A DNA stretch of 64,000 nt. It comes from Salvelinus alpinus. Its lineage: Eukaryota > Chordata > Actinopteri > Salmoniformes > Salmonidae. The position numbers and the translations under genes are program-made. Positions 16,942 to 50,600 of this stretch are shown here, piece after piece. Numbering within the stretch: position 1 is the first letter of the stretch; every line of letters begins with the position of its first letter. A model generated the notes under the pieces. It had not been told where the DNA came from. It did no database searches and worked only from the letters and a program-made list of their open reading frames with translations. Where the stretch lies: the NCBI RefSeq assembly GCF_045679555.1, contig NC_092110.1, positions 3,487,390 to 3,551,389 on the forward strand. Direction: 5' to 3'.

Positions 16942-18004
16942 TATCTTTACTGTGTAGTACCATGTGTAATTTTGCCCTCCATGATCATAATAGTATTATA
17001 ATTATTATTTGCAATACCAAGTAAGTACCTTTTTGTAATTATGCAGAATTATTGTATTAAATGTCTTGGTATGTTGCCTCTACTTGAAACGTTCCAACCT
17101 GTCAATGTGATGCAATACAGTGAGCGTGTCACTTTAACGCCGATTCCTTCAGTGCAATCTAGGGGGCAGGTCTTTTCTTTCATCTGGGACTATACAGTAC
17201 TAGTAGCCAGCTGGAGATGGCCTTGGAGGTTGTGCTTGTGGTGTGCACCGCTGCTCGGGATGAGGAGAGGGAGCAGAATCACAAGCAGAGCGAATGTTTT
17301 ATTAATTCGACATGCAACATTGTGTAAGTAGCTGAACTCTTCATTTGTTGCAAATGCTGAAAATAATTTCTCGATGGTAAACCAGTAGCTCACTGGAGGC
17401 AGGGAATGAAAGCTCTCGGCGGTGCTCATAGCTACACGGTTAATAAAGGATTTGGGAAGGAAATGGTCAAGATGGCAGCTCCATTTGGAATGTGAAGGTG
17501 TGGATTCTTATCGCTAGCGAGCAATTTTTTTTTTTAATGTAACCCGCATATTGGAAATAGTAAACAAACACGGAACGCTGTTGATTGTATACAGTAGCTA
17601 GCTAACGTTATTCTAGAGGGTGCGCTACACGCCATTCCCAAGATAGGTGATGGAATTCTGTTGGATCACTTAAAATGTCGTATGTATAATAAATCAATTT
17701 GTTTACAGACAGACGCTGCAGTAATAAATTCACATGAAACAATGGCCTTTTGAATCGCACGATCAAGTTGCTGCGATCATCAGAGAAAAGACAGTCGACG
17801 GGACGCACGTGGAGTTCAATCATCTGGAGGTGTGGAATGTGGACCGTGGACACATTTGACTCATTATGCATGCTTTAAACGAGTCTGGTGATTGATTGCT
17901 AATATTATGCATGATAACCAAACGAATAATAGCCTATTATTAATGGAATGCAACTTTGTTGATCAGTGTATACCGAATACAAGCAAGAAACCAAGGAGAG
18001 GAAT
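16942..18004 (+). promoter_or_regulatory. Upstream region and 5' UTR of foxo3
   Basis: No repeat or coding exon is recognised for about 1 kb before the foxo3 start, so the promoter and 5' UTR are expected here. An in-frame ATG at 17966 would add 13 residues. I chose 18005 because MAG followed by an acidic DPDFEPQ segment matches the FOXO3 N-terminus. The transcription start is not visible. Confidence 0.4.
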
Positions 18005-31849
<13,845 letters not shown>

Positions 31850-38600: not shown

Positions 38601-41600
38601 TATTTTCTGACTGAATACTAACAAAACAGGTGAAGCCCAAACGGGATCCCTGGCAACAGAAACTTGTCACCAAGCTGAAGGAGCTCCAGTCTTATGATGA
38701 GTTGCTGAGGACTCACTGCAGGTTCCTCCAGGTAAACAGTCTGACACCTAAAGGAGGGATTATATAAATAACCTATTAACGTTCATCTCTATAGCTTGTA
38801 TTGTGTATCGAACTATGGGCTAACAACAATTACTTTCAATCTTGTGTTATTTTGCATACTCACAGTGACACCTCTCTCTCGCTCTATCCCTCACTCTCTC
38901 CCTCCCCAGCTGTCAGATCCTGTCGTAGTGACTGAGGCCCTGAGGGAGCATGCTTCCCAGGTATGTGACCCTCAGGCCATCCAGCCCTCATCATCGCTGA
39001 CATCATCACACACCAACAGACACAACACCTTGCAGATCTGGACCAGCATTTACAGCGCTGCCAATCTTTATCAGGCATGTATTACCTAGTCAGAGATGTG
39101 ATTATGTGTGCTACAAAGGTAACATGCTTTTTCATCATGTAAAATGGATTGTGTCTGGGTTCATTATAACCACAATTAGCATTTTTTTCCTGTTAGGAAT
39201 CCAGTGGATGTGGAGGACAGGATAAAAGCAACACAAAGAGGAGAACCACTTCAGTCAAGAAAATAAATGAAAGGTACATTATTAAGAAGGACAGAATAGG
39301 ATCACTTGAATGTGGACCTCAATTGAATTAAAATGGAATGCCTTTTGCTTATTTGGCGTCCCTTCTCTCTCATTCGCCCCAGCTATAGCTACCAGAGCAG
39401 CATGCAGCTGCTGGGTTTGGATGAGGGCCAGGAGGGGGAAGAGGGTACCTCAGACACCGTCACAGCCAGGGGAGCCTACCTGTCACTCCTCTACCTTCAA
39501 CACCTCAAGATCAGGGAACTGCAGGTGAGCTTCATCCAAAGAGACTTGTGTGATTGCTGCTGGAATTGAAACGATGACCTTGGCGTAGCTAGCGCCACAC
39601 AAGACCACAAGGGAGTTCAGGGTAGACTTTTAGACTGTTAGGGACTGCTCGCTAATACTCTTGTCGCTCCCACTGAACCCTGAGCTGTCCTCTCTTCCCC
39701 GGTGAGTCTCTGTTGGGATGCTGAACTGCTATCCATTATCTACTGTATCATATTATTTACCCTCCCATTCCATCTGGAGCCTGAGCTGTCTTACCCGTCC
39801 TCTCTCCCTTATAGCGCATCTCCCTAGGCATTCTAAACTACCTGAGGTCCATAGAGAGAACCCTGACTTTTGACACAGCTGGGATGCGCGTGGAGGGAGG
39901 AGGAGCATGTGGAGGAGGAGGAGCGGGAGAAGGAGGAGCAGGAGGAGGAAGAGCAGCAGGAGGAGGAGGAGGAGGTTTGGTCAGCACCACTGAGGAGTCA
40001 AGCTGGATGAATGCGGCCAGAGGGTGCAGTGGGACAGTCGGAGGTCTGGGCTCTCACCTCTACAGCCACAACACTCCTGTTGACTACAAGGTAGGGCATC
40101 ACAGCTACAGTACAACCTGAGACATTAATGACATTAGTGATTTGTAGGGGTGAAGAAAATAAGTGAGTAAACGCTCATCATTAGAGGTGACTAAAATAAT
40201 GCTCCCTGAACTTTCAACACATTTTTCCTAAAAAGCAGTGTAAACACTTGCATTAAATAAAAAAGGATCAGAATGGCGTTTTTCGTGTGTGAGTTACAGC
40301 CAAGTAGTTCTGGTAACCCTTGCAGCCTGGTCTGAGGACCAGGCTAATCTGACCCTGGGGTGTTTCATTCCACAAAGCTGTTCCTCTTCTGGTTTGGAAC
40401 TCCATTTGGTATTGGTCGATTAACTTATACTGCCTGAGGATTTCACGAGGCACGCCGAATCTCCACCCATGCAAAACCAGGTCCTGTGTCGATCGTATTT
40501 TCAAATAGCACTTATCAGAAAATAACACTGATCACATTTGCATATTTTTTTTTACAGTGTTAGTTTAATCAGCTGTTGTACAAAATTATATAAAACACAG
40601 GAAAATGTAATTTTTACTACACCGATTTTTTTTTACAGAAAGGTATTATGGTAGAGTCAAGAGGCACTATTCATAACATAGGATTTGCATGAGCTAGACA
40701 CACACAAGACACACACACATACAATAATGTTGTATAGAAAATATTTATATTTTTTGTATTACCAATAGCATAGTAATGCTAAATAGATAATTTTTTATTC
40801 AAAAATCGATTTCATCACGAAAAAGCTAAATGACAAAACAATGAACAAGACAGGAGGGGGTTACAACAGCATACAATGAAAATACAATCAGTTTACCTAT
40901 ATAATACACATTGCAAAAGGCTAAGCAAAACTATACTGCTGTTTTCCTGTCCTGTCCTTTCACTTCAGAATCAGATCAATAGTGGAATCATGGTTACAGA
41001 GCTCTGTACTACACTACAGTATCAAGAAGTCTTCAAAATAACTCAGAATGTCCTCATAATCATCCAAGTATATGATTGGCTGGCGGTTGCTATAACCTGC
41101 CTGTTTCAGGAACTTACGCAGCTTTAGGTCACGGATGTCCCTGAGCAGACCCCTGGTGACGCGGTAGGTGTTGTCAGGGTCAAAACTCAGACCGTCATCG
41201 TCATGCTGGGTCACATAAACCTTATCCACAGTCCCGTCTGGACGCAGACTGATGATGAGGCGGTCCATGTTACTGTCGTCTTGGTCACCAGTAAAGTCTT
41301 TTCTGACATACTGAGGAAGGCAATTGGATTCTTCCAGATTCAGGTTGCCCACTATATAGTATGGGTGGACGTTATCTGGGAGCGGGGAATTGCAGGAAAT
41401 TGCAGATATAGTTGTGGTCACATTGCTGCAGTCCCACTCTGGTCTGTTCTGGAAGGGATGGAAATCAAAGCCCCCCTCGTTGGGGTTGTATCTTGCAACC
41501 ATTTCACCCGTGATATCAAAGTCAATGTAATTCTTGGCGAACCAGAACAGGAGCTTGAGTCCATGCCTGGGCAAGTGACGACCAAACCCAGAACGTCTTA

Positions 41601-44600
41601 GATCTGCCATAGTGTTCAACGTACCTCGAACCATGGTGGTACCCTTGAGAGAGAGAGAGAGAGAGAACTTTAGTAGGTGTGATTGTGTGCAATAAAATCC
41701 CATAATATTTTATTAATTAATTAATTTTTATTTAACCTTTATTTAACTAGGCAAGTCTTTTGAGAACAAATTCTTATTTACAATGACGGCCTACCAAAAG
41801 GCAAAAGGCCTCCTGCGGGGACAGGGGGCCTGGGATTAAAAATAAAAAATAAATACAATATAAATATAGGACAAAACACATATCACAACAAGAGAGACAA
41901 CACAACACTACAATAAAGAGAGACCTAAGACAACAACATAGCAAGGCAGCAACACATGACAACACGGCATGGTAGCAACACAACATAACGGCAACATGGT
42001 AGCAGCACAAAACATGGTACAAACATTATTGGGCACAGACAACAGCACAAAGGGAAGGTAGAGAGAACAAGGCATCACGCAACACAGCTACACCTGTCAG
42101 TAGGAGTGTGTATGTTGCAGCTCATTCCAGTCGCTAGCTGCAGCGAACTGAAAAGAGGAGCGACTCAGGGATGTGTGTGCTTTGGGGACGGACCTTTAAC
42201 AGAATGTGACTGACAGAACGGGTGTTGTATGTGGAGGATGAGGGCTGCAGTAGATGTCTCAGATACGGGGGAGTGAGGCCTAAGAAGGTTTTATAAATAA
42301 GCATCAACCAGTGGGTCTTGCGATGGGTATACAGAGATGACCAGTTTACAGAGATGACCAGTTTACGGAGGTGTATAGAGTGCAGTGATGTGTCCTATAA
42401 GGAGCATTGGTGGCAAATCTGATGGCCGAATGGTAAAGAACATCTAGCCGCTCGAGATGAATAGTGTATACCATGGAACGTTATAGGCCCAGTGCAGTCA
42501 ACATTCTGCTTTACCTGTGTTTTGTATAATATTGATGAAACTAACTCTATAAACGTGTGAAGAAAATGTGTTCAGTGTTATTTCTGAATAGTGGCTTGTT
42601 GGAAGTACAATTTAGCCAGAACCTTCTAATCAGCAGGTTTTGCATGGGTGGAGTTTTAGATTGTTAATACACCAACAGCAAAGAGAGTTCTAACTCTCTG
42701 TCAATAACAGTTAGTTTTCCGGTTAAATATCCCTCCCATGAGTCCCCTCCTCTTAAGTCCCTCACTTAGACAACTGCCAGACAGTCTTAGCAAAATTCTT
42801 GCTTGACAAATAGTTTTTGCAAAAAAAATTTTTTTTGTTTATTTTCGGCCATTTTAATGGAAACTTTTAATTGTTACCCAGAAATGATTTGATATTGAGA
42901 TTAAAAAAACAACTGCCCTGGGTCTTTAAAGAAAATATTCAACCATGTTGTGTAATAAATAGAGGGCAATCTCTCACAACGCTTTTATGGTAGAAAAAGG
43001 GTGTGAATGGGTATGACAAATATGTTTAGTGGCTCTGTCCACACTGTGGGCATGGACACATAACCCTTACAACATGCCAGCTGTTCTTAACTAATACTAG
43101 CATTGTATCATCACAGTGTTCAACCTTTTAGATACTGCCTTTAAAAAGCAACAAATCCCGTAGAATGTGGCATCGATTTGAGTCTCAAACAGTTATCCTA
43201 GTGTCAAAATGTACTACAAAGTGTAAATAGGATCATTTTGGTCATAAAGTCAATCTCGTCTAAGAACGGAGTTTGGAACATCTGTGCGTCACAACGGGTA
43301 AATGAAGGTTGGGTTTCGATTTGACGATGTCCATTTGCCGACTAACATGGGGTGAACAGCTGCAGCGATTGCCCTCTATCCAATAACATAGACAGTGAGA
43401 CAGACCTGCACCGCAGTTCCGACTTTGTTTGCATATGTATGAGACATGGATTAGGCTTCCGTGTCTCATTAGGGACAAACATCATTAACCAAACGCAGAA
43501 TCGGTCAGGAAACACACCTCTAAGACTGAACTCTTGTTTTTCTAATGAGCAACAGAAAAGCACACTGTTCAGTGGCTCTTAAGTAAGTATACACACCTGA
43601 TATAGACAAACAAGATCACACAAACGAACACATAAAATATGTTATATTTACAGTAACTTACGGTTTGCTGGTGCTGTGGTGCTGCTCTCCTTCCTCTCCT
43701 CACGTCTGAGACCTGTATGACAGCTATTTTATCCATCTCACAGTGTTTATGAGGGTCTTGTGTGATAAGGAGGCAGGACTAACCATGAAGACCTCAGTAT
43801 ACAGGAAATGAAACTGAAAGTGACCCAGTCCTGTGCTGGACTGAGTTCGATTGCACAAAGTTCCCTTCTTTCTGCCACATATTCAAAAAGTTTCTCTGAT
43901 CTAGGACCAGTTTTAATCCTCACAATCATAATGAATAAGATTACATGAACAGTGGGGACCAGATATTACCTGACATTTAAGGTGGTCGATGTTGTTTTGT
44001 GTCCAATGTTTTTCATTGAACAATATCTGAAACACCGCACAATAGTATTATACCAACACAACACCCCCTACCCACTCTCCACAACTTCCAGACTTCTTGT
44101 GAACTATCAAGTTTGAAGTTTTATTAGTCTTATGTATGGGATACACATGGTGTACACCGTCCAACGAAATGCTTACTTGCAGGTTCCTTCTTGACAATGC
44201 AATAAAAGATAATCAAACCTATTTGAGGGAAATCTTCTGTTAAACCCTGTTAAACTTGGGGGAACTGTGGAGCTACGGTTAGAGGAAGTATGCCTGGTTC
44301 CTGTCATTCTGGCCCCTGTTGTCCTCACTCACTTGCGACAGACTCATACACATACATAGGGTCGCATGTTTTGCAGATGCTTGCATGGGGTAGCTTGACT
44401 ATATAATGCTCCTGTACTCTGTCTGTTTTTGGCCTTTCACTCCATCTCACCTGCAGGGATGGGACGACCAGCCTCCTTATTATAATACGTTTTTAATAAA
44501 AGTAATACCTTGATTGATTATTGATTTTGCCTCTCCTCGTTATTAGTTAAAGGTAGAATTTCCACCACACATAAGAATAAGAACACAAAGTAAATGGCTC

Positions 44601-47600
44601 AGTAGAATAGAATAAACATTTTAGCATAAGTATTATACTGGAAAGCACACATTATACACTCTTAGAACAAAAGGTGCTATCTAGAACATAAAAGGGTTCT
44701 TTGACTGTCCCCATCGGAGAACCCTTTGAATAACCCTTTTTGGTTTCAGGTAGAACCCTTTTGAGTTCCATGTAAAGTTTCCTTTACACAGAGGGTTCTA
44801 CATTGAACCCGAAGGAGTTCAACCTGGAACCCAAAAGGGTTTTACCTGGAACCAAAAACAGATCTATGGGGACAGCCGAAGAACCCTTTTGGAACCCTTT
44901 TTTCTAAGTGTCTTCCAATATTTACACGTGTTTTGGGGGGGCAAGTGTTCAATTGTCCAATCATAATAAGAGTCTGGTAGCAGAAGTTGTGATGTAAATA
45001 TTAGTCATTTAGCAGACGCTCTCATCCAGAGCGACTTACAGGAGCAATTAGGGTTAAGTGCCTTGCTCAAGGGTACATAGACAGATTTTTTACCTAGTCA
45101 GCTTGGGGATTCGAAACAGAAACCTTTCGGTTACTGGCCCAACGCTCTTAACCTGCCGCCCGTCTGTGTAGTATGAATGTGTTTGTGTATGTGTGTGTGT
45201 GCGTGTGCACGTGTGTGTTTGTGTGTGTGCGTGAGTGAGTGAGTAAGTGAGTGATCGAGCGAGTGCGTCTGCTATGTCAAAGGTTCATTAGGGAATTGAT
45301 ATCGGTGTTACTGTGACTACAGGTTCACTGTTCCGAGTTCATGGAGTACCCAGAGGTGGAGAATCTTCATGATTTCTACACCACTGAGGAGCGATACGTC
45401 CACACCCAGGACCAGCGAGGGCTCTACGTGGTGTACGACGTGGCTCTGAAAGACCTGGAGGAGCTGGAAGACACACTGACTCTTCTGGGCTCACACTACA
45501 TCCAGAGGAGTAGTTGGAGGGTCAAGGGCCAGTCTGAGGGAGGCAGGGTCAAGGGTCAGTCTGAGAGGTCACATAGCTCTGCAACGACAGACCTCCACTC
45601 TTCCTGGGCTCAGACAGATGTGGATAGAGTTGCAGTTCTCCTAGACCTGTGGACATGCGAAGCTGCTTTTTTGGAGAGCAAAGTGCAGGTTAGTAAATAT
45701 GCTGAACAGGGCCGTGTTCATTAGGGCACGAAACAGAAAACATCTTAAAATGTTCTGAAACGGAAAACAAAAATTCACATTTCTCGTTGGACATTTAGTC
45801 CCTCCCTGTTTCAGTCTGTTTTCTTCTCATTGATGCCTAATGAACACGACCCAGGCGATAATCAGTTTATTTTAAGTCCAGTATATTGCGTGTCATTACT
45901 TGAACCATGCTCTGTTAATTTCCAGCTGTTGAACTGCTATATTGAGGCCTACCAACATGTGACAGGACCAGAAGAGAGGTTCTCCTTGGCTCAGGTCATC
46001 ACAGACATCATGCACAGGAGGCCTCGGCTACACCTGGACATGGGAGCAGAGTACTTTGTTCAGGCCTACCGGGCAGAGATGGTCTGTATGCAGACACACC
46101 AGCAACTCATCAGAGCCGTGCTGGATAACCAAGTAATTGCTTCTGAAAAATTGTGGCACAGCCTAGAGAGCTATTGATGCCAGTGTGGATAGTTAAATCA
46201 TAACAGGTGTATCTGCCTTGAAGGACCATGAATAAACTATTGGCTGGGATAGCCCGTTAGCAAAGATAATAAAGGCAATAGGTTTTGAAGTTGAATATAC
46301 AGTATATTCACTTTTCCATGCCATGCGTTCTAAAGGTCTCTCTAACTGTGTTATGTTGACTATTAGATAGATCGTCAGCGGCAATACCTCCATCGGGTGT
46401 GGAGAGGAGGTCAGGGACAGGGAGCTACTCCTTGTGACTATGGTCTTCCTCCTAACTATGTGGCCAAACATCTGGTGTCCCTCGGTGGTGGCAGGCAAGT
46501 CCTAGTTCTACCCATGAATTATAGACTGATTACAGTGTAATGTGATATCACCTCAAAACAGACTAACATGTTAAACAGTATAAATGAATAGCTAATATAA
46601 AAATGTGTGCGCACACCCCTGCCTGTCTGTTCTCTTGCTACCAGTCCCGCCCTGATGAATGTGTTCCTTCTGGAGGTGCACCACTCCCTAAGCCTGGCCT
46701 CTGAAATGTACCAGGCCCTGACCCAGGCTCACACTGAGCTCTGCCAGCTCCACCGTGCCAGGGGGGTGACGGAGAGAGTCACCCTGGAACAGAGACTCCT
46801 ACAGCGGGCTCTGCAGCACTGGCACTCCCTGGATCCTCCCGGGGCCTACTATAGCTCTCAAACTCAAAAGGATGTGAGTCGAGTATCTGTATGACAGCTG
46901 TTTTATCCATCTCACAGTGTTTATGAGGGTGTTGTGTGATAAGGAGGCAGGACTAACCATGAAGACCTCAGAGTGTACAGGAAATGAAACTGAAAGTGAC
47001 CCAGTCCTGTGCTGGACTGAGTTCGTTTCCACAAAGTTCCCTACTTTCTGCCACATATTCAACGTTTATCTGATCTAGGACCCGTTTTAATCCTCATAAT
47101 CATAATGAATACGATTACATGAACAGTGGGGACCAGATATTACCTGACATTTACGGTGGTCGATGTTGTTTTGTGTCCAATGTTTTTCATTGAACAATAT
47201 CTGAAACACAGCACAATAGTATTATACAAACACAACACCCCCTACCCACTCTCCACAACTTCCAGACTTCTTGTGAACTATGTGCAATGATTGCAAACAG
47301 ATCGCAGCACCAATCAGCAATCATTTTTTTCTTTCGCTCCAGTTGTTTTCAGATGTTTTCATGGAGGACCCCTCCCTGGTCCGAGCGGTGGGGGTCTCTC
47401 TGATCAGGTCGGCTGAGGAGCAGGACATGAAGCAGGGGAAGGAGAAACAGCTCTTTGCTGTGGAAACCTTCTCCAAGCTGCTGGAGTTAGTCACCATCCG
47501 CCATCGCCTTATGGAGACAGCAGCAGAGACTGCACATCTGGCACAGTTGAGTTGATTCTTCCTATATTGATTGTAGTTAGTTACTTATTTCAGGGGTATG

Positions 47601-50600
47601 TACTGCAGGGGGTCTGCGATTTTTATATATTTTTTTGAATTTTTTATTTTATTATTATTATTTTATGAATATTGCTAGCTGCAGCAGAATACCACCGTGG
47701 ATACCATTTTTATGTCTCTGCGTCCAGTATGAAGGAAGTTAGAGGTAGTTTCATGAGCCAATGCTTACTAGCTTTAGCGCAATGACTGGAAGTCTACAGG
47801 AACAGTTAGCATGCTAGCTATTCTTGTTCATCCGACATTGGGGAAGTAGATAAAGGGCTTCATTGCCAAAATCTCAAACTATCCCTTTAATATGGAGGAA
47901 ATTACAGTCATTAGAGCTAATTAAAGTTTTTTTTTCCTGTAATGAAAATTCTTAGGCGAGCCGTCTAAGTGGTGATTTTCGGGATGGAGAAACAGTTTCA
48001 GTGTCAACCCAAATGACCAAAATTCAAAAGCCACTCGCAAATCTGAGCTATCTTTTTTTGCAGGTGCATGGTAACAGTTGAATAAGATGAGAGAAAATAA
48101 GAAACACGCACACTGCTCTTGCTAGTATTACTGCTCTTTAATAAGCTTTACGTATCGGCTTCAAGGGCAGAAAGATATTGAAAAATATATATACACTACT
48201 GTTCAAAAGTTTGGGGTCACTTAGAAATGTCCTTGTTTTCCATGAAAACATACATGAAATGAGTTGCAAAATGAATAGGAAATATAGTCAAGACATTGAC
48301 AAGGTTATAAATAATGATTTTTAATTGAAATAATAATTGTGTCCTTCAAACTTTGCTTTCGTCAAAGAATCCTCCATTTGCAGCAATTACAGCCTTGCAG
48401 ACCTTTGGCATTCTAGTTGTCAATTTGTTGAGGTAATCTGAAGAGATTTCACCCCATGCTTCCTGAAGCACCTCCCACAAGTTGGATTGGCTTGATGGGC
48501 ACTTCTTACGTACCATACGGTCAAGCTGCTCCCACTACAGCTCAATAGGGTTGAGATCCAGTGACTGTGCTGGCCACTCTATTATAGACAGAATACCAGC
48601 TGACTGCTTCTTCCCTAAATAGTTATTGCATAGTTTGGAGCTGTGCTTTGGGCCATTTGTTGTAGGAGGAAATTGGCTCCAATTAAGCGCCGTCCACAGG
48701 GTATGGCATGGCGTTGCAAAATAGAGTGATAGCCTTCCTTCTTCAAGATCCCTTTCACCCTGTACAAATCTCCCACTTTACTAGCACCAAAGCACCCCCA
48801 GACCATCACACTGCCTCCACCATGCTTGACAGATGGCGTCAAGCACTTCTCCAGCATCTTTTCATTTTCTTTGTGATCCGAACACCTCAAACTTAGATCC
48901 ATCTGTCCATAACACTTTTTTTCCAATCTTCCTCTGTCCAGTGTCTGTGATCTTAATCTTTTATTTTTATTGGCCAGTCTGAGATATGGCTTTTTCTTTG
49001 CAACTCTGCCTAGAAGGCCAGAATCCTGGAGTCGCCTCTTCACTGTTGACGTTGAGACTGGTGTTTTGCTGGTACTATTTAATGAAGCTGCCAGTTGAGG
49101 ACTTGTGAGGCGTCTGTTTCTCAAACTAGACACTCTAATGTAGTTGTCCTCTTGCTCAGTTGTGCACCGGGGCCTCCCACTCCTCTTTCTATTCTGGTTA
49201 GAAACAGTTTGCGCTGTTCTGTGAAGGGAGTAGTACTGTACACAGCGTTGTACGAGATCTTCAGTTTCTTGGCAATTTCTCGCATGGATTTTCTCAGAAC
49301 AGGAATAGACTGACGAGTTTCAGAAGAAAGTTCTTTTTCTGGCCATTTTGAGCCTGTAATCGAACCCACAAATGCTGATGCTCCGGATACTCAACTATTC
49401 TAAAGAAGGACAGTTTTATTGCTTCTTTAATCAGAACAACAGTTTTCAGCTGTGCTAACATAATTGCAAAAGGGTTTTCTAATGATCAATTAGCCTTTCA
49501 AAATGATCAACTTGGATTAGCTAACACAACGTGCCATTGGAACACAAGAGTGATGGTTGCTAATAATGGGCCTCTGTACGCCTATGTAGATATTCCATTA
49601 AAAAAAAAAACATTTCCAGCTACAATAGTCATTTACAACATGAACAATGTCTACACTGTATTTCTGATCAATTTGATGTTATTTTAATGGACAAAAAAAT
49701 GCTTTTCTTTCAAAAACAAGGGCATTTCTAAGTGAACCCAAACTTTTGAACGGTAGTGCATATATTAAATGATACCATCTTTGAGAACTAACAACCAAAG
49801 AAAAGCTAGACAGTCAGGGAGAATAACATTAAAAAAAAGGGCATTCAATCCACATGCCCATTGATTTTGTTATAACGTTTGAGCAGAGGAACACAGCATT
49901 AGCCATAGCAAAATGCATATAATTGCAGGAAATTTAATTTGAAACGACATTACGCTGAGATTATCGTCACTGTATTTGCAGGCTTTGAGGTAAGTGTTAC
50001 TAAATATGTTTATGGTATAAAACATGAAATTTCCATTCTGTAGTGTTCATATTATGGTCTGGCTCTCCTAGGTTATACAAAACACAAGCTCTGGAGCTGG
50101 GCTTTGATGAGTTCCACCTGTATGTGCGCCCGGAGCAGTTTGAGTTTGCTGTCCAGAGAGACAAGGCAGCGCATAGACCTCTGTTTGTTACGGCACTACT
50201 GCAGGACGACAGCTGGATGGACAGGTACCCTCTTTACCCTGTTTACTCTGCTAACATAGATAGATGTGCAGCTAACTTCTTTTTCTTTCTTAGTAAATTG
50301 TATGATATCTACAGGTAGACCTTGAAAAATAAGGGAACTATTAACAATTCACTTTTTTGACTATGTAACGCTTAAAATAATCATAAAAAATCTTCTTCTC
50401 GTGGACTAAAAGTCATATTCACTCCACATTTGGTCTTTGGACTCGTCAAAATAATAACCCCTAAACAGAGAAAATAACGTTGCTGCATTCCAATGACCAC
50501 ACGATACCACACTATATGCTAATTTGCTAAAATATGCAAAAAATATGCAAAGAATCTTCTTCTCATGAACCGTAGACCAAATGACACCACATTCTGATTG

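Follow-up and report, generated by a model that had tools for sequence, protein, structure and literature searches.

MER41-type transposons spread ISREs in primates, and secondary (shadow) enhancers can arise by duplication. The locus described here resembles the former in that an ISRE has come to lie at a new site close to an immune gene, but it is present in two copies only, through duplication, and belongs to no mobile family. It resembles the latter in that a redundant copy of a control region, of putative activity, lies at a distance from the same gene. Onozawa and Aplan (PMC5110952) describe class 2 templated insertions as lacking both poly(A) and a TSD of at least 5 nt and as having short microhomology. 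As in those insertions, a genomic piece was apparently copied so as to leave microhomology at one junction and neither a poly(A) nor a TSD of that length, whereas in our case the presumed donor lies in direct orientation at a distance of just 3 kb, the copy is 3.6% diverged and it is not known to be polymorphic. In Atlantic salmon, the gig1-like genes treated in PMC12247413 have a small first exon, a long intron and their reading frame in the second exon, and after poly(I:C) the ATAC and H3K27ac peaks overlap the first exons of two of three such genes, the second copy having none. Relatives of the gene studied here lie in a virus-resistance QTL of Atlantic salmon (PMC12247413, PMC7316828). The gene itself shares the small first exon, long intron and second-exon frame with the Ssa03 cluster, and the (AC)n reported at exon 1 in that cluster has a likeness in the (CA)n found beside ISRE-bearing block relatives of two genes on sequence C1 of our assembly; from the cluster described there (PMC12247413) our gene differs in standing alone inside ccdc162, in having no (AC)n there and in its duplicated promoter block. 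In the library searched, no paper joined transposable elements, salmonids, interferon and ISRE, and the one paper found on ccdc162 and salmon concerned asthma.

We analysed a window of 64,000 nt of Salvelinus alpinus DNA, corresponding to C25:3487390-3551389 of the 2.37-Gb assembly, in which the following features were recognized.

41014-41634, minus strand: gig1-like coding sequence; 206 codons counted from the chosen ATG, then a stop, with the frame uninterrupted
43662-43712, minus strand: gig1 exon-1 region (5' untranslated), donor CAGCAAACC/GTAAGT, read from the sequence; the TSS may lie inside block 1
43713-44107, minus strand: block 1, 395 nt, proximal promoter region of the gig1-like gene on this strand and probable donor copy
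43804-43821, minus strand: ISRE of block 1, plus-strand reading GGAAATGAAACTGAAAGT
43896-43965, no strand assigned: dispersed-repeat core in block 1 (block positions ~184-253)
44108-44215, minus strand: truncated dispersed LINE/SINE-like element; its probable 3' end adjoins block 1 and the opposite end is placed approximately, class and orientation presumptive
46874-47342, plus strand: ccdc162 intron with block 2, phase-0 donor GAT/GTGAGT, acceptor CTCCAG/TTG, frame kept
46887-47281, minus strand: block 2, probable inserted copy in an intron of ccdc162, 3.17 kb upstream of block 1
46980-46997, minus strand: ISRE of block 2, with the same sequence as in block 1

We take the plus-strand gene to be ccdc162, following the original prediction and a presumed FOXO3-ARMC2-CCDC162 synteny, of which only the FOXO gene was confirmed here. 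Its exons, at 17963-31846 and upstream of ccdc162, encode Forkhead, FOXO_KIX_bdg and FOXO-TAD. Pfam searches returned nothing at or above the cut-off for five ORFs in the ccdc162 frame, and nothing for 8 of 10 further ORFs. Several repeats were also observed in this neighbourhood. A Tc1/mariner-like element at 48187-49765 contains a minus-strand transposase fragment (HTH_Tnp_Tc3_2) and has 53-nt inverted arms (48187-48239 and 49713-49765, 92% complementary). A UnaL2 LINE 3' element lies on the minus strand at 44999-45052 (Rfam RF00436; 40000-50000 searched), and clustered inverted AACCCTTTT-type repeats at 44669-44903 possibly form a folded-back repeat element.

The minus-strand gene was read from the sequence as a small first exon, an intron of ~2 kb with its first base at 43661, and an intact frame in the second exon. 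Published qPCR primers for Atlantic salmon Gig1 (PMC3552842) match it with two and zero mismatches and delimit a 114-nt amplicon. A search of the assembly with the gig1 protein gave 52 matches, 30 of which were taken as loci for this comparison; the 29 loci other than the window gene (L010-L038) had 7 to 13 total mismatches to the primers, some of them only out of register. This fit to the published salmonid Gig1 sequence points to the window gene as a member of the gig1 family. The protein itself was assigned to no family by Pfam, and nothing was found in the PDB up to E 1. Its only match on C25 is the window gene. Ten near-full-length gig1-like matches without stops lie on C1 at 14.009-14.409 Mb, and others on C2, C6, C23 and elsewhere. 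The C6 matches include a second gig1-like array at 58.48-58.65 Mb, with a stop codon in 10 of the 14 matches listed.

Block 1 lies directly upstream of gig1, joined to its exon-1 region; block 2 lies 3.2 kb upstream of the gene and points the same way. The original prediction had placed two 395-nt blocks here in common orientation and had judged them nearly identical by eye. Sequence comparison reproduced the coordinates, length and orientation, with a start-to-start distance of 3174 nt, and the similarity is indeed high, although the wording was slightly generous: BLASTN gives 95.5% identity over 397 columns, with 14 substitutions (3.6%) and two indels of 2 nt each, which offset one another in length. 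Homology stops sharply at the ends of both blocks. Flank pieces of 71-226 nt from both sides of both blocks gave no other match within the window below E 0.1, the block itself excepted, and among repeats of at least 25 nt within 42000-50000 there is no further long direct pair at the ~3174-nt spacing.

The number of such blocks in the genome bears directly on their origin, as two copies, both local, had been proposed to indicate local duplication and hundreds a transposable element. Searching the assembly with block 2, with all 32 first-look candidates scored, we obtained 36 matches, a count that may be a lower bound as the search skips very common words, and one in which a missing match is no proof of rarity. 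Two matches are full-length, and both lie within the window. Three more, all on C1, extend well past the dispersed core (13352099-13352332, aligned with block positions 31-253; 14412116-14412315, with 60-252; 14159537-14159671, with 31-166), and the other 31 are confined to positions ~182-256, which constitute a dispersed repeat. Because the same search returned 1520 first-look candidates for an element that is indeed high-copy, it should also have revealed a block repeated hundreds of times. With two full-length copies, both local, the outcome is therefore that of local duplication and not of a transposable element; the 395-nt block is not a mobile family, and the suggestions of an unrecognised mobile unit or a high-copy repeat genome-wide fall away, only positions ~182-256 being dispersed. 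A previously unrecognised mobile element bearing the ISRE could account for the sharp block ends, for the repeat core inside the block and for the LINE/SINE-like end that abuts block 1, but the sole full-length copies in 2.37 Gb lie 3 kb apart, the search does find a high-copy element when given one, the remaining matches stop inside the block, and its ends show none of the marks of transposition given below, so that we consider this origin extremely unlikely.

Block 2 begins exactly 13 bp past a ccdc162 splice donor (intron bases 46874-46886) and almost fills the intron, both as predicted, occupying 395 of 469 nt if the in-frame acceptor CTCCAG/TTG is used. The intron outside the block amounts to 13 nt on the left and 61 nt on the right, together 74 nt, and we infer an intron of this size before the insertion. 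A length of 74 nt is common among compact fish introns. The insert sits between usable splice sites. An ohnologous ccdc162 locus was sought as an empty site with two exon queries, the adjacent exon as DNA and the neighbouring exon as protein; each gave one assembly match, and no second locus was found. The junctions of block 2, read directly, show neither poly(A) nor a TSD reaching 5 nt, and its ends are not complementary; an inverted-repeat search (arms of at least 25 nt) found no such arms at the block ends. At the right junction only TAT is common to block end and target (GAACTAT/ and CGAGTAT/), and the left junction has no such microhomology match.

Taken with the copy number, orientation, boundaries and in-frame splice sites, these features make it quite probable that block 2 is a one-off copy of the gig1 proximal promoter, placed in a 74-nt ccdc162 intron by templated break repair and not by transposition; direction, empty-intron size and mechanism are the conjectural parts of this reading. 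A DNA break in the short intron would have been repaired by templated copying of the gig1 proximal promoter, by which block 2 would have gained a complete ISRE without exon 1. Repair is suggested by the shape of the junctions and by the 3-nt TAT match, which chance gives easily. With a presumed donor at another site, NHEJ-like junctions and neither poly(A) nor a TSD of at least 5 nt, block 2 can be assigned, putatively, to the class 2 insertions. As a mutational class the duplication is ordinary, and its content is mildly interesting.

The original prediction had also offered the block as the scar of a lost tandem gene copy. It would then be the remnant of a larger tandem duplication of gig1 and part of ccdc162 (a unit of ~3174 nt or more), the rest of which was deleted. 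Direct orientation and the short distance between the blocks agree with such a history, and gig1-like genes do occur in tandem, as in the C1 array. Against it, a unit including flanking gene parts is not seen, homology being limited to 395 nt; neither a second exon-1 region, nor another gig1 coding copy on C25, nor a copy of the two ccdc162 exons searched was found, and the block spacing is shared by no other long direct pair. Beside block 2, where the original prediction had seen neither a first exon nor a coding part, gig1 exon-1 sequence was likewise not found. A second, precise deletion that spared a minimal working intron would moreover be needed. As insertion alone explains how a 74-nt intron grew to 469 nt, a lost tandem copy is unneeded, and we regard it as unlikely.

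The right edge of block 1 (44107) coincides with the end of the LINE/SINE-like element, which was compared by alignment of nine copies. This element gave 1520 first-look candidates in the assembly, of which 40 were scored, and 36 of the 39 non-self matches listed begin within 44104-44112. Its end at 44108 is probably the 3' end, judging from an AATAAA-containing tail and from what we take to be its relatives, and in the window search no homology continues past the element next to block 1. The coincidence of edges may be chance or may reflect a linked event, in which a LINE endonuclease would have nicked the DNA at 44107, the truncated element inserting there, and the 3' end GAACTAT so freed would have primed copying into the ccdc162 intron at TAT. 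The shared edge, the match between the TAT at the block end and that of the target, and a weak target duplication (ATAGGTT/ATAGTTC) flanking the element are what such an event would leave; yet the edges could agree by chance, the left junction is without matching bases, the target duplication is imperfect, and class and orientation of the element are themselves presumptive, so that a linked nick seems decidedly unlikely. Less likely still is the fuller version, in which a single LINE-endonuclease nick beside gig1 both took the truncated element and launched the promoter copy, giving gig1 a second working upstream ISRE. If true, this would be insertion-linked copy-and-paste of promoters without moving a transposon.

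Templated repair requires a donor, and the relatives of the block help to identify it. We compared stretches of ~4-9 kb upstream of 11 gig1-like genes in ten C1 array loci (L040-L049), together with a C2 locus (L050) and a locus at C1:13.35 Mb (L039). Block-like sequence occurs upstream of two array genes out of 11, those in L040 and L041, and also in L039. In the upstream stretches compared, none was found for the other nine, an argument against regarding the block as universal; L044-L047 do have loose GAAA-N1-2-GAAA matches, but these proved to be different sequence and were rejected as relatives. L039 (C1:13344000-13353900) appears as an orphan gig1-like 5' end with a block-like promoter, (CA)n, exon-1-like sequence and a donor, and no gig1 coding sequence was found in this stretch. 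Block 1 adjoins the exon-1 region of an intact gig1 gene, and parts of its positions ~31-253 can be aligned with sequence preceding two C1 gig1-like genes; we therefore take it to be the donor, with copying presumably from block 1 to block 2.

With L039-L041 as outgroups, and with several assignments resting on one or two outgroup sequences, 4 of the 16 differences between the blocks are derived in block 1 and 6 in block 2, and 6 were assigned to neither. Derived changes on both copies imply that both aged independently, and the duplication looks like a fairly old, one-off event; no difference in constraint between the copies is visible. They also argue against an assembly duplicate. The possibility raised earlier, that one copy is an assembly or haplotype artefact, would further have to accommodate the differing flanks of the two blocks, and we give it almost no weight. 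The substitutions include 7 A/C changes and 3 transitions among 14. Relative to pooled C1 array alignments, a poor control that is repeat-rich and in which the transition share ranges from 0.19 to 0.60 by pair, the binomial value is 1e-4 for A/C, 0.09 for A/C plus G/T (strand-neutral) and 0.24 for transitions. We asked this only once the data were known, and the spectrum was not used as evidence, the strand-neutral and transition counts being not unusual.

The 13-nt ISRE match TGAAACTGAAAGT is the same in both blocks (43809-43821 and 46985-46997), which bears out the intact ISRE predicted for block 2, and it fits 12 of 13 positions of GRAAASTGAAAST, which we take to be the consensus. The window contains three motif matches against 1.09 expected, and 10 of 100 shuffles reach three, so the count alone is not significant. 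What gives the motif weight is that relatives of the promoter block carry it too, not its count. The 17-mer GAAATGAAACTGAAAGT is intact in blocks 1 and 2 and in L040 and L041; L050 has it with one mismatch, in gene orientation and ~1.3 kb upstream of the gig1-like match, and the orphan L039 with two mismatches. Retention of the ISRE between the blocks was rejected as evidence of function, since their divergence is too low; unchanged runs longer than the ISRE occur elsewhere in the block. Orphan ISREs were likewise rejected as a trend, since L039 was the sole further orphan gig1 5' end seen and its ISRE is damaged.

The peaks over first exons in Atlantic salmon make it reasonable to expect that block 1 is interferon-responsive, and by extension block 2 might be. 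Block 2 is possibly a putative spare enhancer of gig1. If it works, it would most likely do so as a further element responsive to interferon, lying 3.2 kb upstream of gig1 and oriented like the gene, where ISGF3/IRF factors would bind it beside the original promoter. The alternative of a putative promoter for an antisense transcript is somewhat weakened because block 2 is without the exon-1 junction, differs from block 1 in the TATA-like stretch on the exon-1 side (block position 14; ATAAAATA in block 1, ATAAAACA in block 2), and has its nearest downstream donor-like match on the minus strand at ~45042 in a consensus scan of 43600-47000. Given that distant match, a short alternative gig1 first exon starting from block 2 is not obvious either. 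No sign of selection on block 2 was found by inspection, and it may also be a passive passenger. The locus clearly exemplifies the duplication of an interferon-type control block, without its gene, beside an antiviral gene. If active, block 2 would offer a natural experiment on the effect of redundant ISREs on the strength of an interferon-stimulated gene; if inactive, it would serve as a neutral control for ISRE decay.
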